This document shows positions 24,985 to 35,129 of a stretch of DNA of 64,000 nucleotides, piece after piece. Both the position numbers and the translations under genes were made by a program. The DNA comes from Chthonomonas calidirosea T49. GTDB lineage: Bacteria > Armatimonadota > Chthonomonadetes > Chthonomonadales > Chthonomonadaceae. The stretch spans positions 1,804,674 through 1,868,673 of the forward strand of contig NC_021487.1 of assembly GCF_000427095.1 (NCBI RefSeq), read 5' to 3'. Under the pieces are notes generated by a model that worked only from the letters and a program-made list of their open reading frames with translations, had not been told where the DNA came from and did no database searches. The number at the start of each line of letters is the position of its first letter. Position 1 is the first letter of the stretch.

Positions 24985-25880
24985 TGAAACCACAACAGGC
25001 ATCGTCTCCAGTCTCCTCTTCGTTAGACAATCTGTTTGTTCTAAAACAGGTAAGCTATCGCTACAACCCAGAAACTCCGGCGCTCTCCAACATCTCGGTA
25101 GAGCTGCGCGCGGGGGAAAGCGTGGCGCTATTAGGCGCTAATGGCTGTGGGAAGTCTACCCTCCTAAAGCTGCTCGGAGGGCTGCTTTTTGCACAAGAAG
25201 GGGAAGTGCTTGCTTTTGGCGAGCCGCTAACCGAAGCTTTTCTCAACGTGGAGCGCAACGCCCATCGGTTTCGACGGCGCGTGGGCTTCGTGTTTCAAAA
25301 TGCCGATGCCCAGTTGTTCTCCGCCACCGTGCGCGAGGAGCTAGCTTTCGGACCGCTTCATCTGGGGCTGCCTTACGAGGAGGTCCTGCAGCGCGTGCAC
25401 GATGTGGCTCGCCTTGTTCAAGTGGAGATGCTGCTAGAACGCCCTCCTTTCCTCCTCTCCCACGGAGAAAAGCGACGTGTTGCTCTTGGGTGTGTTTTGG
25501 CCACAAACCCCGATGTGCTCCTACTCGACGAGCCGACCACCGGCCTCGATCCGCGCTCCCAAGTGCAGTTTTCGGAGCTGTTGCAGGCGCTTCATAGGGC
25601 TGGAAAAACCTTGATCATTAGCACCCACGATCTTCACCTCGTGCCGGAGCTTGCCCAGCGTGCCCTCATTATGGCGGAAGACCACACGCTTGCTGCCGAT
25701 ATTCCCGCCGCCCAGCTATTCGATCACCTCGATCTGCTTTACCGCGTCAACCTCATTCATGAACATATGCACCGGCATGGCTCTATCGTTCACTCGCATC
25801 CACACTATCATTCCGGCGAACATGCCCATTCGCATCTACCACCACTCGAAACGCCTCCTCAAACGCAGGAAGAGAACTAA
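24984..25880 (+). CDS. cbiO: CbiO-type ECF transporter ATPase with His-rich tail
   Basis: This ATPase powers the fused CbiMNQ protein. It has Walker A GANGCGKST near residue 50, a Q-loop in VGFVFQNADAQLFSATV, the signature LSHGEKRRVALG, Walker B VLLLDEPTTGLDP and the switch His in ISTHDLHL. The last 45 residues hold about a dozen His in HxH patterns, likely a metal store or chaperone tail. The ATG at 24984 overlaps the previous stop after TAGGAGGG. Its stop overlaps that of the convergent kdpD-like gene at 25877-25880, with no terminator between. Confidence 0.93.
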   Translation: MKPQQASSPVSSSLDNLFVLKQVSYRYNPETPALSNISVELRAGESVALLGANGCGKSTLLKLLGGLLFAQEGEVLAFGEPLTEAFLNVERNAHRFRRRVGFVFQNADAQLFSATVREELAFGPLHLGLPYEEVLQRVHDVARLVQVEMLLERPPFLLSHGEKRRVALGCVLATNPDVLLLDEPTTGLDPRSQVQFSELLQALHRAGKTLIISTHDLHLVPELAQRALIMAEDHTLAADIPAAQLFDHLDLLYRVNLIHEHMHRHGSIVHSHPHYHSGEHAHSHLPPLETPPQTQEEN

Positions 25881-27025
25881 AGTGCCTCGTCTTCGGGTGG
25901 AGCGACAATAAGGATGTCTATGTTGCGCAACTCTTGGGTAAGCCGATGAATAATAGAGCCCTTGAGAAATTCTTGAAAACGAGAACGGCTTGAATGGCCG
26001 ATCACAATCTGTGTAATCTGATGCTCTTTAGCATAGGAGATCAGCTGATCGGCCACTTCACCGTGAAGGGTAACAACAGGGATCTTGAGTTGGTCAGCGA
26101 GCGCTAAAACGCTGCGAAACTGTTCTTGCTGTTCGGGCGTGAGGGGCCGATTCTCCACGTAGACCGCCACGATATCCGCGTCGAGCCTTTGGGCGATGCG
26201 CCATCCGCGCCGTAGGAGTCGCATCGATGCCAACTCAGGGGCAATACACACCATAATGCGGTCTTTCGTTGCCCAGGTCTTCTTGATGCGCTGCTCTTTT
26301 CGATAATCGCTGAGGTCACGGTCTACCTCTTGAGCCACTTCCCGAAGGGCTATCTCACGAAGTGCATTGAGGTTGCCTTCTCGAAACCAGTTGTTGAGAG
26401 CGGATTGGATCTTGTCGGAAGGATATATCTCTCCGCGCTCTAATCGGTGAATCAGCGCGCGCGGGGTGATGTCTACCATCACGATCTCGGCCTCATGTAG
26501 CAGGCTATCGGGAACGGTCTCGCGCACACGAATACCGGTGATGTCGTAAACCGTGTCGTTGAGACTTTCCAAATGCTGAACGTTCAGCGTGGTCAGCACA
26601 CTGATGCCATGGTCACGTAGATACTCTACATCTTGCCAGCGCTTCGGCCGCTCAGAGCCGGGCACGTTGGTATGGGCTAGCTCATCTACAACCACCCATT
26701 GAGGCTTGCGGCGCAGAATGGCTTCCGTATCCATCTCTTCAAAAACCCTACCGCGATACTCTATCTTCTTTCGCGGAATGATCTCGAGATCGCCTATCTG
26801 TGCCTCTGTTCCCTTGCGACCGTGCGTCTCTACATAGCCGATCACCACATCCTGCCCACGCTGCTTGCGCCGATTCGCTTCGCTAAGCATCTCATAGGTC
26901 TTGCCAACTCCTGCAGCAAAACCGAGAAAGATCTTCAGGCGCCCTCGTTGCTGTGGCTCTTCCGCTTTAATACGGGCAAGCAATGCATCGGGATCGGGGC
27001 GTTCCTCCTGAGCATCCGACACCAT
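25877..27025 (-). CDS. kdpD: Short KdpD: sensor and universal-stress domains without a histidine kinase
   Basis: The 382 residues match only the N-terminal cytoplasmic half of KdpD. The KdpD domain has Walker A GFAAGVGKTYEML near residue 35 and Walker B VVVDELAHTNVPGSERPKRW near 110, followed by a Usp domain at about 250-375 with GHSSRSRF. The membrane helices and HisKA/HATPase of full KdpD are absent. Short KdpD proteins are known in cyanobacteria and Deinococcus. It is the last gene of the kdp operon and may pass a K+ or c-di-AMP signal to the separate kinase encoded two genes upstream. A GGAAG site precedes the ATG. Confidence 0.9.
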   Translation of the reverse strand: MVSDAQEERPDPDALLARIKAEEPQQRGRLKIFLGFAAGVGKTYEMLSEANRRKQRGQDVVIGYVETHGRKGTEAQIGDLEIIPRKKIEYRGRVFEEMDTEAILRRKPQWVVVDELAHTNVPGSERPKRWQDVEYLRDHGISVLTTLNVQHLESLNDTVYDITGIRVRETVPDSLLHEAEIVMVDITPRALIHRLERGEIYPSDKIQSALNNWFREGNLNALREIALREVAQEVDRDLSDYRKEQRIKKTWATKDRIMVCIAPELASMRLLRRGWRIAQRLDADIVAVYVENRPLTPEQQEQFRSVLALADQLKIPVVTLHGEVADQLISYAKEHQITQIVIGHSSRSRFQEFLKGSIIHRLTQELRNIDILIVAPPEDEAL

Positions 27026-27039
27026 GAGGCTTCCTTCTC

Positions 27040-27777
27040 CTAAACAGTGGTCAACACGGCATCAATCCAGCGACGCATGCCGGTTGTCAGCTCTTCAACC
27101 TGCAACAGGTTGTTGGGAGGAAGTTCGGCATGCTGCCAAAGATAGTTGGCTAACGCCTCTTCACAGAGGGCCTGCCAAAAACGATTACCGCCGGCAAACT
27201 GCTCCCTGTCGGCATAAGCTTTTACAAGCTCTATGATATGGGGCAAGAGAACAACCTTACACTGGCTCTTCTCCCCTGAAGGGCTGGTAACGGTGAACGT
27301 CTGTTCAAACTTACCCCCGGTATAAAGAGCGGTATCCGGTTGAAACTCGATGTGGTAGCCGTTGACCGTGGTAAACCCGTAGGTCAGCCCCTGCGATTCA
27401 GCCGGAGCTGCCTCAGTCTTATTCAAGGCGGCCTCCACCGCACCGCGAAGGGTTTTTGCCGTGAACGGTTTTCTCAAAAAGTCGGTCGCCCCGAGCTTCA
27501 TAGCAGAAACAGCAAGGTCTATCGTTCCAAAAGCAGTAATCATGATGATCTTTGCATCACTATTGCGCTCCTTTAGCTCTTTCAGAACGTATAGGCCCTC
27601 CACGTCGGGCATTCTTTGGTCTAACAAAACGAGGTCCCATGCGTCTCCATTGCCGAACTTAGCGATGCCTTCAAGGCCGTCATAGGCCACTTCAACCTCA
27701 TGGCCGGCCGCTTTCAACGTAAGCTGAAGCATACGGCAAATATTGGGTTCATCATCTATTACAAGAATGCGGGCCAT
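27040..27777 (-). CDS. Response regulator with an unrecognised non-HTH output domain
   Basis: Residues 1-125 are a CheY-like receiver with the acidic pair IDDEP, phosphorylation Asp in LVLLDQRMPDVEG, Thr in MITAFG and Lys in FLRKPF. The remaining 120 residues (NGYHIEFQPDTALYTGG and on) do not look like the winged helix of KdpE; they resemble a small mixed fold ending in a helical part. The ATG at 27777 follows AAGGAG by eight bases and lies three bases after the kinase stop. It is the likely partner of that kinase. How it changes kdp expression without a DNA-binding domain is open. Confidence 0.85.
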   Translation of the reverse strand: MARILVIDDEPNICRMLQLTLKAAGHEVEVAYDGLEGIAKFGNGDAWDLVLLDQRMPDVEGLYVLKELKERNSDAKIIMITAFGTIDLAVSAMKLGATDFLRKPFTAKTLRGAVEAALNKTEAAPAESQGLTYGFTTVNGYHIEFQPDTALYTGGKFEQTFTVTSPSGEKSQCKVVLLPHIIELVKAYADREQFAGGNRFWQALCEEALANYLWQHAELPPNNLLQVEELTTGMRRWIDAVLTTV

Positions 27778-27779
27778 TT

Positions 27780-29615
27780 TCAAAGCTCCTTAACAGGTAG
27801 ATAGAAGGTAAAAGTGCTGCCTTTTCCTGGAGTGCTCTCCACGGTTATCTGACCTCCATGGGCCTTCACAATGGTCTGTGCGATAGAAAGCCCTAAACCG
27901 GCGCCGCTGCGCGCTACGCCCGGCACCTGTACAAACCGCTCGAAGATGCGCGGAAGATACTCTGGCGGAATGCCAATGCCCGTATCCTGCACCGAAAAGA
28001 AGACCTTCTCATCCTTTGGATAGACCTTTATATGAATTTGTCCTCCCTCGGGGGTAAAACGAACGGCGTTATTGAGCAGATTGAGGAGCACGCGGTTGAT
28101 CTGGGCAGGATCGGCTCGAAGCGGAGGCAATAGGGGAAACACTTCGACACGTAGGTGAAGATTCTTTGCTTTTGTCTGAGGCTCTATGGCCTCAACGGCG
28201 TTTTGAACCAGCTGTTCAGCCGATACGATCTCGAATCGCGGTGGAGTTGCTCCCGTTTCAAGACGGGTGATGTCGAGGAGATCGCGCATCATGCGATCGA
28301 GGCGCTGCAAATCCTCTTTCTGACATCGAACAACCTCTTGTTGTTCGGGAGTTAACGGGCCGAGAGTGCCCTCTTGAAGGAGATCCACCGAGAGCTGCAA
28401 CGAGGTCACTGGCGTGCGCAACTCATGAGAGGCAATGCCGATGAATTCCGTTTTCAGTCGGTCGAGTTGGCGTAGGTGCGTGATATCCTCCAAGACGGCG
28501 ACGGCACCAAGCAGCTCTCCCCCCTCCGCCTTCATAGGGGTTGTGCGCAAACGGTAGGTACGTGGAATGCCAGCATATTCTAGGTCCACCATGCCGGCCT
28601 CATCTTCAGCCACCGAGGCGCTTTGTTGATGAATGGCTTTATGTAGCGCTGTAACAATGCTCTTATCGCGGATGGTTTCATCAATCGGCTTACCGATAAG
28701 GTTTGCCTCTGGACCAAAAAGCCCCTCAGCTGCGCGATTCACATGTACCAGTCTGCCCTCGGCGTCGGCCACTATCACCGGGTCGTAAAGACTTTCCAAC
28801 GCCGCTTCCGACATGCGCTCGGCTCGCTGATAACGCTCCTCTTCAACGCGCCGTGCCTCTTGAAGCCTCTCGGCCATCCGGTTAAAGGCACGTGCCAATG
28901 CGCCGATCTCATCGGATCGGTGAACCTCGATGCGCTGGTTGAAATGCCCTGCTCCTATCTCTTCGGCCTGACGCACCAAAGAACGCAACGGAGCGAGAGT
29001 TGAATTGACCATTCTGTAGGAGAAGAAAAGCGCCAAACCAAGCGCGAGAACCGAGGCCGTAATGCCCAGCCAAAAAGCACGTCGCGCCTCGGTTCTTGCG
29101 CGTTTATCCGCCTTTACAATGGCTTGTTGATTCAGATCGAGCACATCCTGAGCGCGCTGTTTGAGGCGCAAAAAAGCCGGCTCGAGCACATGAAAGTAGT
29201 ACGCACGAGCCTGCTCGGGAGGCATAGGAGGGTTTGCGTAGAGCAGCCGCTCTATCGCTTTCTGATACTTTGCGAATTGGCGCTGGATGTCATCGGATAG
29301 CTGCTGCTCTCCCGGCTCCGTGATATTATGGGCCTCGACATCGGCCGCTTGGGCAAAAAGCGGCCGAAAGAACTGGTACTGCTTGCGCGCTTTCTCCACC
29401 TGCCCAGCCAGGTAGAAGGTGGCCGCGCTGTCCTGACGCTCCAAAAACTCCTTCATGTTCTCCGCGGCCACCACGCTAACGTAGTTGTTCTTCAAGATTC
29501 GGTCTACGGAGGTGCCTAAGTGGCGCACCTGCAGAATCCCCCCTATGATCACCCCCATCAGAATAAAGATGAGGATGAGATAGCCAATAAGGAACTGGGT
29601 GCGCACATTGTACAT
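27780..29615 (-). CDS. Membrane histidine kinase with HAMP and PAS domains
   Basis: The roughly 611-residue kinase has a first membrane helix (FLIGYLILIFILMGVIIGG), a helical outside sensor of about 145 residues, a second helix, HAMP, a PAS domain (ALESLYDPVIVADAEGRL), HisKA with H box ASHELRTPVTSLQLSVDLL, and HATPase with NLLNNAVRFTPEGG and GTGIG-type boxes. The ATG at 29615 is eight bases after the kdpC stop. Its place between kdpC and the response regulator suggests it takes over the kinase role missing from the short KdpD. Its signal is unknown. Confidence 0.93.
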   Translation of the reverse strand: MYNVRTQFLIGYLILIFILMGVIIGGILQVRHLGTSVDRILKNNYVSVVAAENMKEFLERQDSAATFYLAGQVEKARKQYQFFRPLFAQAADVEAHNITEPGEQQLSDDIQRQFAKYQKAIERLLYANPPMPPEQARAYYFHVLEPAFLRLKQRAQDVLDLNQQAIVKADKRARTEARRAFWLGITASVLALGLALFFSYRMVNSTLAPLRSLVRQAEEIGAGHFNQRIEVHRSDEIGALARAFNRMAERLQEARRVEEERYQRAERMSEAALESLYDPVIVADAEGRLVHVNRAAEGLFGPEANLIGKPIDETIRDKSIVTALHKAIHQQSASVAEDEAGMVDLEYAGIPRTYRLRTTPMKAEGGELLGAVAVLEDITHLRQLDRLKTEFIGIASHELRTPVTSLQLSVDLLQEGTLGPLTPEQQEVVRCQKEDLQRLDRMMRDLLDITRLETGATPPRFEIVSAEQLVQNAVEAIEPQTKAKNLHLRVEVFPLLPPLRADPAQINRVLLNLLNNAVRFTPEGGQIHIKVYPKDEKVFFSVQDTGIGIPPEYLPRIFERFVQVPGVARSGAGLGLSIAQTIVKAHGGQITVESTPGKGSTFTFYLPVKEL

Positions 29616-29622
29616 TTTGCTT

Positions 29623-30252
29623 CTATTGTCTCTTTGTGACAGGGTAGAGCCGATCGAGCGCAAGATTCAGGCGTAACACATTGACGCGCGGCTCGCCGAG
29701 AATGCCGAACTGCCGAGGTTGCGTATAGTCGTGAATAAGCCGCCTCACACGGCTAACCTCCACACCCCGTGCCTTGGCCACACGATCCGCCTGTAAAAGA
29801 GCGTTCTCAACGCTGATGTCTGGATCGAGTCCGCTTCCGGAACGGGTAACGGCGTCAGTGGGCAGCGGCATTGTGCTCGGCAGGTTGTTCTCTTGACGAT
29901 AGGCGGTGGCTAAGTCTTTCATACCATCGAAGTTGTCGGTGGCCTTCGGGCCGTGATGCACGCCATTGATCAGTTTATCCGTCGTAGGGGCCAGATTGGT
30001 TCCTCCGGAACTGGTGGGGTCGTAGCCGTTGCCTGCCGCCGAAGGACGTGGATGAAAGTAGATCGGGAGCGTGAAGCTTTGTCCGATCAGCTCCGAGCCA
30101 ACCACTCTGCCATTTCGCACAATGAGGCTTCCATGAGCTTGAAACGGAAAGAGGATGTTAGCCACCAGAGTGACAAGGCCAGGGAAAACAAACCCCAGCA
30201 AGATCGTCCAAGCCAAAACGCTAACCAGAGCAGGGCGTAATTGAGTTCTCAT
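29623..30252 (-). CDS. kdpC: K+-transporting ATPase subunit C
   Basis: KdpC is the single-span subunit that stabilises the KdpFABC complex. It shows the N-terminal helix (VLAWTILLGFVFPGLVTLVANILF), then GSELIGQSF, the FHPRPSAAGNGYDPTSSGGTNLAPT block, and the C-terminal VNVLRLNLALDRL. The ATG at 30252 follows GGAG at nine bases; an in-frame ATG 18 bases upstream has no ribosome site. The length is about 209 residues. Confidence 0.95.
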   Translation of the reverse strand: MRTQLRPALVSVLAWTILLGFVFPGLVTLVANILFPFQAHGSLIVRNGRVVGSELIGQSFTLPIYFHPRPSAAGNGYDPTSSGGTNLAPTTDKLINGVHHGPKATDNFDGMKDLATAYRQENNLPSTMPLPTDAVTRSGSGLDPDISVENALLQADRVAKARGVEVSRVRRLIHDYTQPRQFGILGEPRVNVLRLNLALDRLYPVTKRQ

Positions 30253-30276
30253 AGAGAGGTTCTCCTTCATCTATTT

Positions 30277-32382
30277 TTAGGCGAGATGTAACAGCACCAA
30301 AAGGCGGTCGAGCAGCCAAATGCCTGGGAAGGGGGCGATGATGCCGCCCAACCCGTAGATCAGCAGGTTTCTTCTTAAGATGGCCGCTGCACCTAACGGC
30401 CGATAGGCGATCCCCCTAAGGGCCAACGGGATCAGCGCGATGATGATCAACGCATTGAAAATAACCGCAGCCAAGATGGCCGATTCGGGATTGGTTAGCT
30501 TCATGATGTTGAGAGCATTCAGCGCGGGATAGATAGGTGCGAACATCGCTGGCAAGATGGCAAAATACTTGGCCACATCGTTGGCGATGCTAAACGTGGT
30601 AAGCGCCCCTCGCGTCATGAGCAGCTGTTTGCCGATCTCTACCACCTCAATGAGTTTCGTGGGGTTGCTATCGAGGTCTACCATGTTGCCCGCCTCTTTG
30701 GCTGCTTGGGTACCACTGTTCATGGCCAACCCCACATCGGCCTGAGCGAGCGCCGGAGCATCGTTTGTGCCATCCCCTGTCATGGCCACCAACTTACCCG
30801 CCGCCTGCTCTTGGCGGATCAGGGCTAGCTTCATTTCGGGCGTGGCCTCGGCAAGAAAGTCGTCTACGCCAGCCTCTTCGGCGATCGTTTTAGCCGTCAA
30901 TGGGTTATCGCCAGTGATCATAACGGTGCGGATGCCCATGGAGCGGAGCTGCTCAAAGCGCTCGCGGATTCCCCCCTTTACCACATCTTTGAGATAGATC
31001 ACGCCGAGAATACGCTCGTTTTTGGCCACGACCAGAGGCGTACCTCCCTTCTGAGAGATATTGGTGACGATGGGCTCCAGTTCACAAGGAATCTCACCGC
31101 CCAAGGAGAGCACATGGCGCTTAATGGCCTCTGCCGCCCCTTTGCGAATCTGTTGACCATCCATATCAATACCGCTCATGCGTGTTTGGGCAGAAAAGGG
31201 AACGAACTCCGCATGATGAGAGGCCAACTCTCTACCGCGAAGACCATACTTCTCTTTAGCAAGCACCACAATACTGCGACCTTCTGGGGTCTCATCGGCC
31301 AAACTGGAAAGCTGTGCGGCATCCACTAGCTCCTCCATACTCACATTGGGAAGCGGAATAAACTCCACCGCCTGGCGGTTGCCTAACGTGATGGTGCCCG
31401 TTTTATCCAACAAAATGGTGTCAATATCCCCCGCGGCCTCTACCGCCTTGCCCGACTTGGCCAGTACGTTGTGCTGCATCACCCTATCCATACCGGCGAT
31501 CCCAATAGCCGAAAGTAGCCCGCCGATGGTGGTTGGGATGAGGCAGACCAGGAGCGCCACCAACACCACGACGGAGGGCGCTTGGCCCGACTGCGTGGCG
31601 CGCACGGCAAAATCGGCGAAAGGCGGCAGAGTGACACAAACCAGTAGGAAGATAATGGTAAGCCCCGATAACAGGATGGAGAGAGCGATCTCGTTGGGGG
31701 TTTTCTGACGTTGGGCGCCCTCCACCAGAGCGATCATACGATCTATAAAGGTCTCTCCTGGGTTGGCGGTAATGCGGATGACGATGCGATCGGAAAGCAC
31801 TTTGGTTCCCCCTGTTACCGCGCTTCGATCGCCACCGGCCTCCCGAATAACAGGGGCCGACTCGCCTGTTATCACCGACTCATCCACGCTGGCGATTCCT
31901 TCGATAACCTCCCCATCACCGGGGATAATATCCCCTGCCTCACAGACCACCACATCTCCTTTGCGCAGTTGTGTGGCCGGCACCCGCTCCTCTTTTCCGT
32001 TGACAAGCTTGCGCGCGAGGGTATCCGTTTTGGTTTTACGAAGGCTCTCGGCTTGCGCCTTACCACGTCCTTCTGCCATCGCCTCAGCGAAGTTTGCAAA
32101 GAGCACTGTAAACCAAAGCCAAAGCGCCACCTGGCCCGTAAAAAGCGGTTGGCCTGTATGGGTAATCAGCTGCTTTACCCAGAAATAGGATGTGAGAAGA
32201 CTGCCAACCCACACCACAAACATCACGGGGTTGCGGGCAACGAGGCGTGGATGGAGCTTGCGAAAGGCATCGCGCACGGCATTCTTCACCAAGGTAGGCT
32301 CAAACAGAGAGAGGGTTTGTCTTCCTGAGTGAGACGGCCTACCGGCAGTTGGATTCTTAGGGTTTTTCTGTACGGTTCGCAC
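30277..32382 (-). CDS. kdpB: K+-transporting ATPase subunit B (P-type ATPase)
   Basis: KdpB is the catalytic P-type ATPase of the high-affinity potassium pump. It carries the TGES loop (VITGESAPV), the phosphorylation motif DKTGTIT near residue 325, [21 protein letters not shown], and the membrane helices, in 701 residues. The start is GTG at 32382, preceded by AAGGGAG. It lies between kdpA and kdpC in the standard order. Confidence 0.97.
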
Positions 32383-32393
32383 TGTTCGCTCCC

Positions 32394-34187
32394 TTAAAAG
32401 AGTTTTCCGATGTGTAGTTGGAACTGCTCGGCAAAAGGCCCAAGCGCTAACGCTGGGAAGAAGGTAAGCGCACCGATGATGATGGTTGTGCCCACGAGCA
32501 GAAATACGAAGGTGCTGGAGTCGGTGGGGAAGGTGCCGGCCGTGGCTGGTACCAGCTTCTTACGTGCCAAGCTGCCAGCGATGGCGATGGAAGGGATCAG
32601 CATGAAGAAGCGCCCCACCCACATGGCCAGCCCCAGGAGCAGATTGTAGATGGGGGTATTGGCATTTAGGCCGGCGAAGGCCGAACCGTTGTTATTGGTC
32701 GTGGAGGTAAACGCATAAAGAATTTCGGAAAAGCCATGGGGGCCGGGATTGTTCACGTTATTATAGGTGGCGCCGAGATAGGTTGTACTGCCGTTGACTC
32801 GGTTCCAGGAGCTGTGGGCGGAGAGTGGCAGATCGGAAGCGATGGCGGTAAAGGTGAGCACGGAGGCAGCATGGATCAGCATCACCAATACCGCCATGGT
32901 GATCTCATACTTTTCAATCTTTTTGCCAAGATATTCCGGTGTCCGTCCCACCATAAGCCCGGCAATGAATACCGCAATAACGGCAATAATAAGCATACCA
33001 GTTAGTCCTGCTCCCACCCCTCCAAAGATCACCTCACCGGTCATCATGTTCACAAGCGGTACCAGCCCTCCAATGGGAGTAAAAGAGTCGTGCATGGCGT
33101 TCACAGCCCCACAAGAGGTGTCGGTAGTGACGGTTGCAAAAAGGGCAGTGGCTGCGATGCCAAATCGCATCTCTTTCCCCTCCATGTTTCCACCCGGCTG
33201 AAGCGAGGAGGGTTTAAGGTCGAGTCTAAGAGGCCCGCTCTGCAGTAGGGCGATGCCCCTTTGTTCCTGCTGATAGCAGACAAAAACCCCCATGAAAAAC
33301 ATGGCGCTCATGGCTGCGAAGAGCGCCCACCCCTGCCGGGTATTGCCCACCATCTTGCCGAAGGTGTAGGTGAGAGCTGCAGGAATCAAGAAGATGGCGA
33401 GCATCTCCAAAAGGTTAGTGAGCGGAGTTGGGTTTTCGTAGGGATGAGCCGAATTGGCATTAAAGAAGCCCCCTCCGTTTGTACCCAACTCCTTAATCGC
33501 CTCTTGAGAGGCCACCGGCCCTTGGGGAATGAGCTGCGTGCTTCCCTCTACTGTGGCCACTTTGGTGTAGGGCGAGAAGTTCTGTGGAACCCCTTGCCAT
33601 ACGAGCAGCAGCGCCAAAATGAAGGTGAGTGGCAGAAGAATATAGAGAGTCGCCCGCGTGGTGTCTACCCAAAAGTTGCCGATTTCATGAACGGTACGAC
33701 GAGCAAACCCGCGAATGAAGGCAACAGCCACGGCGATACCAGCAGCGGCCGACATCCAGTTATGCATGGCCAAAGCCACCATGTTGGAGAAGTAGCTAAC
33801 CGTGCTTTCAGGGGTATAAGATTGCCAGTTAGTATTGGTAGTGAAAGACACAGCTGTGTTAAAGGCCAAATCGGGTGTCATCTGATCGGCCCCAAACTTC
33901 TGAGGGTTCCAGGGTAAATGCCCCTGTAGCCTCAAGAGAATGTAGGTGAGAAGCAACCCTACCACACTGAAGAGCACGAAGGCAAGGGCGTAGGTGGTCC
34001 AGGGCATCTCCACCTCCTCTTCAATACCGAAAAGCCGATAAAGCCCCACCTCGAGCGGGCGGAGAATCGGATGCAGCAGCGTTCTCTCCCCTTGGAAAAC
34101 ACGGGCCATATAGCTGCCGAGCGGTTTGGTGAATACTAGGATCAGCAGAAAGAAGAGGAGTATCTGTGCGACTCCATTGGGTGTCAT
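32394..34187 (-). CDS. kdpA: K+-transporting ATPase subunit A
   Basis: KdpA is the channel-like subunit that binds K+ in a selectivity filter related to K+ channels. Filter loops such as [30 protein letters not shown] and [18 protein letters not shown] are visible among about ten membrane helices in 597 residues. The ATG follows an AGGAGG that overlaps the kdpF stop. Confidence 0.96.
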
Positions 34188-34201: not shown

Positions 34202-34288
34202 CTAGAAACGCTCTGGATAGAAGAGCGCATAGAGTAGGTACACAAACAGACAGCAGATAATAAATAGGATCAACGCGTGTTCCATCAT
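34202..34288 (-). CDS. kdpF: KdpF-like small membrane subunit
   Basis: A 28-residue ORF directly before kdpA encodes one membrane helix (LILFIICCLFVYLLYALFY) ending in PERF. Size, position and the YLxYALxxPERF ending match KdpF, the small lipid-like subunit of the KdpFABC pump. Two ATG codons open it after AGGGAGG. Its start overlaps the stop of another tiny ORF. Confidence 0.85.
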   Translation of the reverse strand: MMEHALILFIICCLFVYLLYALFYPERF

Positions 34289-34386
34289 CGCTGGCCTCCC
34301 TGCAGAAGACGATTGCAACCGTAAAGAAAGCCTACCGTGAGCGCCGTCATTACCAGTATAATAAAAATAGCAAATCCGTCCGACAT
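34285..34386 (-). CDS. 33-residue membrane peptide at the head of the kdp operon
   Basis: A tiny ORF with a strong site (AAGGAGAG) encodes MSDGFAIFIILVMTALTVGF followed by LYGCNRLLQGGQR: one membrane helix and a short polar tail. Its stop overlaps the kdpF start by four bases (ATGA), so the two should be coupled. Small ORFs of this general form before kdpF or kdpA occur in other phyla as far as I recall, but have no assigned role. It could be an accessory pump peptide or a control of kdpF translation. Confidence 0.7.
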   Translation of the reverse strand: MSDGFAIFIILVMTALTVGFLYGCNRLLQGGQR

Positions 34387-34422: not shown

Positions 34423-34487
34423 AAAAAGCAAAAAGGCCGGAAGTGACGGTAAGCTCTCCCATGAAAGAGCTTCCGTAACCTCCGGCC
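34423..34487 (-). terminator. Terminator-like hairpin in the kdp leader
   Basis: On the minus strand GGCCGGA (34487-34481) pairs with TCCGGCC (34441-34435), with inner ACGG/CCGT and AAGCTCT/AGAGCTT stems, and is followed by T5-GC-T5. It ends only 37 bases before the first kdp ORF, leaving little room for a separate promoter. It is therefore either the end of the mpsC-like transcript or an attenuator for kdp. Confidence 0.8.
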
Positions 34488-34560
34488 TCCTTCCCGACAA
34501 AGGCAGAATCAGCAGCCTCCTTCGGAACGGCAACCGAGCACGATGACTTATTATTAAGGT

Positions 34561-34959
34561 CTATCGCTTACGCGCGGGGAGGTTTGATGCATCCAGAAAG
34601 CGTTTTTCTACGTTCTCTTCCAAGATGTAGACCTCCACCAGTTCAGCGGCCTCTACGTTCACGTCACCGTAGCTTCGCAGCACCTTACAGCCTACGATAT
34701 TGGCGATAATGGCTTCGATTTCGTTGCGGCTGATCATGCGGAGCTCCTGCCGAGCGCTTCGGATCAGCCGGCGCCCCTCCTCGGTCGCCACGAGGTGGGC
34801 CTCGGTAGGTGTGAGAATACCCGTGCAGCGTACGAGAAGTGCATCTCCCACCAGGTGTACTTTTACATCCGAGGGACCCCGCCCCTGTTGCTCCCTCTGA
34901 AATCGCGACACTGCGTTGGCGATCTCCGCCTCGATCATGCCTTTAGTTGGTTGGTTCAT
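34561..34959 (-). CDS. MpsC-family (DUF2294) protein
   Basis: The 132-residue protein matches DUF2294, now named for MpsC of the Staphylococcus membrane-potential-generating (Na+-translocating, bicarbonate-linked) system. Conserved parts are MIEAEIANAVSRFQREQQGRGPSDVKV, the TGILTPTEAHL block, and the C-terminal LVEVYILEENVE. The ATG at 34959 is chosen because the longer frame would run back through a terminator hairpin. It sits between two terminator-like elements and before kdp, which suggests an ion or membrane-potential theme. Its biochemical role is unknown. Confidence 0.85.
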   Translation of the reverse strand: MNQPTKGMIEAEIANAVSRFQREQQGRGPSDVKVHLVGDALLVRCTGILTPTEAHLVATEEGRRLIRSARQELRMISRNEIEAIIANIVGCKVLRSYGDVNVEAAELVEVYILEENVEKRFLDASNLPARKR

Positions 34960-34984
34960 ACACGGGCTTCTCAGACCATTTAGC

Positions 34985-35046
34985 AAAAAGGCCAGCATCC
35001 AACCTGCCCGTGCGTTCACGGCACACGTTCAGCTAGGATGCTGGCC
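34985..35046 (-). terminator. Strong terminator hairpin before the mpsC-like gene
   Basis: GGCCAGCATCC (minus 35046-35036) pairs perfectly with GGATGCTGGCC (35000-34990), an 11-bp stem, followed by five T. It lies about 50 bases after a consensus promoter and 26 bases before the gene start, the position of a transcription attenuator. Confidence 0.85.
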
Positions 35047-35094
35047 TACAGGGATACCAGGTTTTTGAGCCCCTTATCCTTGTCCACCAGGACA
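35047..35094 (-). promoter_or_regulatory. Short structured leader, candidate riboswitch or attenuator
   Basis: From the predicted start near 35094 the RNA forms a stem TGTCC/GGACA with a TGGT loop (35094-35081), then GGATA/TATCC (35079-35052) enclosing a loop with AAAAA, then the terminator. The order of small folded region, terminator, and gene is that of a riboswitch. I could not match it to a known class (fluoride, ZTP, preQ1, c-di-AMP, guanidine). Confidence 0.5.
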
Positions 35095-35100
35095 AATAGG

Positions 35101-35129
35101 ATTTTACCACACGTTGCACCAGATGTCAA
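35101..35129 (-). promoter_or_regulatory. Consensus promoter of the mpsC-like gene (and possibly kdp)
   Basis: On the minus strand TTGACA (35129-35124) and TAAAAT (35106-35101) are 17 bases apart. The predicted start is near 35094. No comparable promoter is visible between here and the kdp genes, so it may serve both. Confidence 0.8.

Follow-up and report, generated by a model that had tools for sequence, protein, structure and literature searches.

A covarying RNA motif that overlaps intrinsic terminators twice in the mpsC-kdp operon of Chthonomonas calidirosea, apparently an undescribed class of attenuator

A rod-like RNA hairpin overlapping an intrinsic terminator was found twice in the mpsC-kdp operon of Chthonomonas calidirosea T49, within a window of 64,000 nucleotides (the whole stretch of DNA analysed, to which all coordinates of this genome refer). 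The fold and its overlap with the terminator are almost certainly genuine and represent what appears to be an undescribed attenuator class on K+-uptake genes. The best explanation overall, to which we give an even chance, is an uncatalogued transcription attenuator used twice in this operon, with a regulator that is most likely a protein. Sequence comparison among relatives shows the fold and its repeated occurrence, as well as the overlap with terminators and the K+ regulon; the features of the locus are listed in Table 1.

Table 1. Features of the mpsC-kdp operon in the window
Feature	Position	Strand	Basis and remarks
Promoter, sigma-70 type, TTGACA-N17-TAAAAT	35101..35129	-	-35 at 35129-35124, -10 at 35106-35101; 11/12 matches
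Motif copy 1 (predicted antiterminator)	35039..35092	-	Covariance models R1-R3; ~54-nt rod-like hairpin
Intrinsic terminator 1	34985..35046	-	5' arm includes 3' strand of motif P1
mpsC-family gene (PF10057/DUF2294)	34561..34959	-	132 aa from ATG; Pfam E 4.7e-35, 120.5 bits vs cut-off 23
Motif copy 2 (kdp type), CGGTTGCC / GGAGGCCGG	34480..34540	-	R1, R2 and R3 searches
Intrinsic terminator 2	34430..34490	-	5' arm at 34490-34473, 3' arm with T5 at 34449-34430; shares bases with P1 of copy 2
Small membrane-protein ORF, 33 aa, MSDGFAIFIILVMTALTVGFLYGCNRLLQGGQR	34285..34386	-	Sequence; between leader 2 and kdpF
kdpF	from 34288, within 34202..34386	-	Sequence
kdpA	32394-34187	-	Pfam KdpA
kdpB	30277-32382	-	Pfam E1-E2 ATPase
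kdpC	29623-30270	-	Pfam KdpC
Sensor histidine kinase	27780-29663	-	
Response regulator	27040-27783	-	Receiver and a C-terminal domain (126 aa) that belongs to no known family
KdpD sensor domain and USP	25877-27025	-	

A preliminary description of this DNA, made from the letters alone, had proposed a minus-strand promoter, a leader with two small stems, a perfect 11-bp terminator with five T and then an MpsC-family gene. The promoter was located as described, and one with 10-12 of 12 consensus matches lies just 5' of the motif in 13 of 14 mpsC leaders of relatives; the transcript is expected to start at about 35094, at motif copy 1. The coordinates of the terminator and gene also agreed. The arms of terminator 1 (5', GGCCAGCATCC, 35046-35036; 3', GGATGCTGGCC, 35000-34990) form 11 perfect pairs around an inner hairpin and are followed by five T (34989-34985), and the mpsC ATG at 34959 lies 25 nt past this T run. 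An alternative, longer mpsC reading from a GTG at 35019 would start within terminator 1. Of the two stems, the idea of a structured leader was upheld by covariation, and the particular stem TTGTCC/GGACAA was absent from the relatives' leaders inspected. The conserved fold instead pairs CTGG (35090-35087) with CCAG (35044-35041), which is part of the terminator's own 5' arm. Folding of the leader with terminator 1 was far better than that of shuffles (z -5.7), mostly through the contribution of the terminator, and the 60-nt leader part alone did not stand out from shuffles (z -0.88); folding of a single sequence would thus have been no proof of an aptamer-like structure, which comparison provides.

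The MpsC protein is present in 17 of the 31 genomes of the order, and most upstream regions of these genes share, on direct reading, the pattern YTGGTTGAC-N3-4-YGCA-AGGG...CCGG-TGC-N3-TGTAGGCCAG. Ten mpsC leaders were aligned by sequence only, and this alignment, the basis of model R1, contained 19 pairs with 90% of cells paired and double-sided changes in 10 pairs. Its covariation score was 0.387, compared with 0.244 +/- 0.023 for shuffled alignments, and was reached by 0 of 500 shuffles; RNAalifold, unaided, gave a nearly identical fold. In the later models R2 and R3, copies of the kdp type were added. In the 39 aligned copies of R3, 91% of cells were paired and double changes occurred in 16 of 19 pairs (163 cells), with 56 further pair types and again 0 of 500 shuffles reaching the score; the R2 and R3 alignments were fitted to the structure and are therefore biased towards the fold, a bias from which the sequence-only alignment of 10 leaders is free. 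Covariation among homologous leaders, whose absence the preliminary description had named as evidence against its proposal, is accordingly present in both sets.

In copy 1, which scored 50.7 bits (R2) and 46.4 bits (R3) in a search of its own genome (a 3.44-Mb single contig), P1 is formed by CTGGTG/GGCCAG with a G35084.A35047 mismatch, followed by P1b (ACA/TGT), a 3x3 spacer, P2 (ATA/TAT), a purine 2x2 loop (AG/GG) and P3. Across the copies, which are 54-77 nt in length, P1 reads YGGUU/GGCCR, the G.A mismatch is kept in 38 of 39 and a short P1b follows. The spacer is 3x3 in 32 of 39 copies with nearly random sequence (conservation 0.02-0.24 bits), P2 has three pairs, the 2x2 loop is mostly AG/RG, and P3 and its loop vary in length and sequence. 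Two subtypes were recognised, an mpsC type with GAC/GUA and a kdp type with GCC/GGA, so that the pair beside the G.A mismatch covaries from A-U to C-G. Counted along the helix, the two conserved mismatch sites would stand about 9-10 base-pair steps apart, or roughly one helical turn, a spacing that would suit contact of a protein, or of a dimer, with one side of the rod.

A second motif and terminator, missed in the preliminary description, lie between mpsC and kdp (34540-34430). In a search of 63.5 kb, the mpsC-only model R1 matched copy 2 with E 0.048. R2 and R3, both of which had been trained with copy 2, matched it in a search of the whole genome with E 1.7e-5 and 8.3e-7, respectively; exactly two motif matches were found in the genome with R2 and R3. 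R1 also matched the gap between mpsC and the next gene in relatives (loci L005, 3.8e-5; L004, 9e-4; L006, 0.009; L007, 0.044; L014, 0.056), at a constant position relative to mpsC, so that mpsC-kdp leaders were recovered from mpsC leaders in several genomes, mostly weakly (E 4e-5 to 0.056). The resulting order is promoter, motif, terminator, mpsC, motif, terminator and kdp genes. The placement of mpsC between two motif-terminator units (here 34985-35092 and 34430-34540) recurs at L104, L106, L006 and others. Small ORFs resembling that at 34285-34386 were seen at the equivalent place in relatives. KdpD is reduced to the sensor domain and USP, the histidine kinase being encoded separately.

An intrinsic terminator stem overlaps the 3' strand of P1 in all 43 copies examined. 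The overlap is at least 5 bases in 42 of 43 copies, whereas random anchors reach this in 161 of 1720 cases; if a stem score of at least 18 is also required, the figures are 37 of 43 and 17 of 1720. Judged against this control, each copy can adopt either of two structures that cannot coexist, and the second of these along the transcript is an intrinsic terminator; together with the covariation this makes the label of attenuator, a structured cis-regulatory element of the kind first suspected, well supported. Compared with the motif plus the folds downstream of it, the fold containing the terminator was favoured by 5-22 kcal/mol, with a median of 13.1. Termination should therefore be the default, and whatever binds the motif would be expected to turn the gene ON; from this anatomy, motif formation probably prevents termination. 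Most mpsC-kdp copies are without a promoter of their own, and stand-alone kdp copies of genomes G029, G030 and G038 have one.

Two mutually exclusive folds would in principle suffice for a passive attenuator, in which the balance of hairpin and terminator tracks temperature, ionic strength or transcription speed with no dedicated binder, and the purine mismatches and G.A site could be ion-sensitive; we nevertheless consider this improbable, since the conservation of the G.A, of GGUU/GGCC and of the AG/RG loop goes beyond what pairing needs. Less probable again, to the point of being very unlikely, is a chance fold in what would be tandem terminators of the ordinary kind or attenuation by a leader peptide. 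The Chthonomonas mpsC leader does contain a frame of 13 codons (GTG GAC ... TAG), but no Shine-Dalgarno sequence was seen before it and the variable loop lengths would break such frames. Against both stand the double covariation in 39 sequences and the recurrence of the motif before unrelated K+ genes, and the leader peptide was rejected on covariation.

The preliminary description had suggested a covariance-model search upstream of DUF2294 genes in other Armatimonadota, and this search recovered copies. Among 291 Armatimonadota genomes, R3 gave matches in 23, one of them G116; the weak matches in G116, L044 and L046 lay within coding sequence and were set aside as chance. A copy before KimA at the Abditibacteriaceae locus L124, taken as the same genome as G033, was missed in this filtered search, and four copies outside the training set (L124, L146, L147 and L148) lie upstream of KimA or kdp. 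The genes downstream of the motif are mpsC, a small ORF/kdpF with kdpABC, or a KimA-type K+ importer, for which the closest solved chain was 6s3k in two cases (E 6.7e-136 and 1.5e-107). One copy (L074) precedes a Na+/H+ exchanger followed by a sensor kinase, response regulator and KdpD domain, and in G002 and G004 a sensor kinase follows mpsC; copies at L041, L043, L031, L064 and L089 were left without an assigned target gene. The connection with ions first guessed from the neighbouring kdp genes is thus borne out as a tie to K+ homeostasis by the kdp, KimA, exchanger and mpsC targets, and a conserved, covarying leader structure before functionally related genes, as is expected of riboswitches, is seen here.

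Several individual loci depart from these arrangements. At L069 (~1640-1920, G048:C309) the frame that follows a motif and terminator is lysine-rich and 16 aa long, MAKKAKDKKDKKKNKK. The mpsC gene of L190 / L018 (G003:C72) is truncated to about 26 codons and continues into a frame resembling the end of a KimA-type permease, with the upstream motif retained. Tandem copies about 260 bases apart stand before kdp at L076 (1263-1319 and 1578-1640, G002:C160), where mpsC does not intervene. In Vallitaleaceae, the single mpsC locus examined was without the motif.

The preliminary description could match the element to no known class, and Rfam 15, searched at gathering and permissive thresholds in the window and the relatives' loci, likewise held no family for it; sub-threshold matches were chance ones only, to miRNA, CRISPR-repeat and one sRNA family. 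The c-di-AMP riboswitch model RF00379 matched neither the window, the relatives' loci nor the rest of the genome, and a plasmid DNA search gave no match. No description was met in the part of the open literature covered by searches for DUF2294/MpsC with a riboswitch, a K+ riboswitch or Chthonomonas non-coding RNA, and the texts of two large non-coding RNA surveys were without kdp, potassium or Armatimonadota. The novelty of the RNA class is provisional.

Presence was scored for mpsC (38 of the 291 genomes), KdpA (78) and the motif (22, the count used for co-occurrence). Given KdpA, the motif was found in 17 of 28 genomes with mpsC vs 1 of 50 without (Fisher 5e-9), and outside family f15 in 17 of 24 vs 1 of 22 (3e-6); these p-values overstate independence, as the genomes are related and phylogeny was uncorrected, and inclusion of G033 would make the mpsC-positive figure 18 of 28. 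No such leader was found in the kdp upstream regions of G015 (where the contig ends 332 bases upstream of kdp), G019, G255, G225 and G116, all without mpsC, nor in that of G033, which has mpsC and carries the motif at KimA instead. Four f15 genomes with mpsC and kdp had no motif match, and their kdp upstream regions were without such a leader, so MpsC should have a motif-independent role; in G027 the motif is present and neither mpsC nor kdp was found. The C-terminal domain of the response regulator occurs in 53 of 291 genomes, including many motif-less ones (among them G015 and G026, with kdp and no motif), and was not found in motif-bearing G020. Given these mismatches, mpsC tracks the motif better than does the response-regulator domain within the family to which C. 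calidirosea belongs.

From these results the following mechanism is proposed. RNA polymerase would first make the rod-like hairpin, of which the P1 3' strand is also the 5' arm of the next terminator. With no regulator, the more stable terminator would form and transcription would stop; a regulator holding the hairpin would keep P1 closed, block the terminator and allow the gene to be read. Copy 1 would control mpsC and everything downstream, and copy 2 kdp. The regulator would most likely be a protein that recognises both mismatch sites in the rod when K+ is limiting, either MpsC, by autoregulation in a bglG-like layout, or the response regulator of the operon; we infer that K+ limitation is the signal, that a protein is involved and which protein it is. 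Protein-dependent antitermination is slightly favoured over direct sensing of a ligand (Na+, another ion or c-di-AMP), because the spacer is unconserved while the helix, the G.A (38 of 39) and the AG/RG loop are conserved, and because of the bgl-like layout and the co-occurrence with mpsC.

A true ON-type riboswitch, whose rod would bind an ion or metabolite that rises at K+ shortage, for example Na+, and thereby stabilise P1, is quite conceivable, though we place it below an even chance. It would fit the leader position, the compact fold and the coherent regulon of K+ importers and a cation/H+ exchanger. A small-molecule pocket usually requires conserved unpaired bases, but the motif has no conserved unpaired pocket and its spacer sequence is nearly random; the association with mpsC beyond kdp would not be predicted either. 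Na+ riboswitches do exist (PMC9337991), and the DUF1646 motif resembles the present one in its cation-homeostasis regulon; that motif conserves nucleotides at the P1 base and in the P2 loop (PMC9337991), whereas P3 and its loop are variable here. As to c-di-AMP, a synthase domain is found in 29 of the 31 genomes of the order and the known c-di-AMP riboswitch in only 2 of 31, so that control of K+ genes by this nucleotide would need another receptor. Those two genomes, G006 and G007, have a degenerate motif-like leader before kdp (in G007, L184 474-538, minus strand, 13 bits). The ydaO/RF00379 riboswitch is likewise a leader attenuator on kdpFABC and kimA, and Bacillus kdp operons that carry it have, as here, a KdpD truncated to its N-terminal part (PMC6488665), but it matches the motif in neither sequence nor structure. 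Binding to the present motif would have to activate its genes. The known c-di-AMP riboswitch on kdp, in contrast, favours termination in its bound state, and c-di-AMP falls under K+ limitation (PMC6488665), which gives a sense opposite to that expected of the motif; a c-di-AMP variant is possible only if the ligand opens, not closes, the motif.

For a protein regulator, one close parallel is the BglG/LicT/SacY group. The bglG gene sits between two antiterminator elements, and the layout here resembles this arrangement; in that group the regulator gene is preceded by its own element, as the candidate regulator gene mpsC is here, and in both an antiterminator hairpin with internal loops is mutually exclusive with an intrinsic terminator. 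The RAT antiterminator overlaps the terminator (PMC9981650), and the CAT-RAT complex is a stem with two internal loops bound by a protein dimer (PMC3369936). In contrast to RAT, the present motif, 54-77 nt long, contains purine mismatches and a 3x3 spacer and does not follow the RAT consensus; the genes serve K+ uptake, not sugar uptake as with BglG; and no CAT/PRD regulator was found in the gene between the motifs, whose Pfam matches were to PF10057 only. In ANTAR/EutV systems, too, an operon with attenuators encodes a kinase together with a response regulator in which no DNA-binding domain is recognised, but the present motif is a single rod and the C-terminal domain has no ANTAR match in Pfam.

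That MpsC/DUF2294 might be the founding member of an RNA-binding antiterminator family, which would sense K+ limitation, hold the rod and activate its own gene and the K+ importers, is put forward tentatively and remains on the doubtful side. Its AF2 model is confident (pLDDT 90), with the order helix, two strands, two helices, two strands and helix. Comparison of the model with the PDB gave a best Foldseek E of 0.04 and a best VIA Z of 7.3, inside the range that unrelated folds give; the model thus resembles no solved structure convincingly, whether RNA-binding or not, and an RNA-binding family is neither claimed nor excluded. The family name derives from gene order in Staphylococcus (PMC6689103) and carries little functional weight, since deleting mpsC in S. 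aureus gives no phenotype and mpsC does not lie beside mpsAB elsewhere (PMC6689103). For the response regulator, Pfam at E<=10 gave the receiver only, with no ANTAR match, and its C-terminal domain had no Pfam or convincing PDB match; the best hit of the AF2 model, to a DUF1488 protein (Z 6.1), is weak and not decisive.

How K+ shortage is sensed outside the well-studied bacterial groups is largely an open question, and the canonical KdpDE pair is present in only about half of the species with kdp (PMC6488665 survey). The motif provides kdp and kimA with a compact, well-defined RNA in a phylum where the c-di-AMP synthase occurs (as tested in the order) and known c-di-AMP riboswitches are almost absent. 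If it senses a ligand, a minimal rod RNA reading a cation-related signal would be new; if it is read by a protein, a function would be gained for the orphan DUF2294 family or for an unassigned response-regulator output domain.
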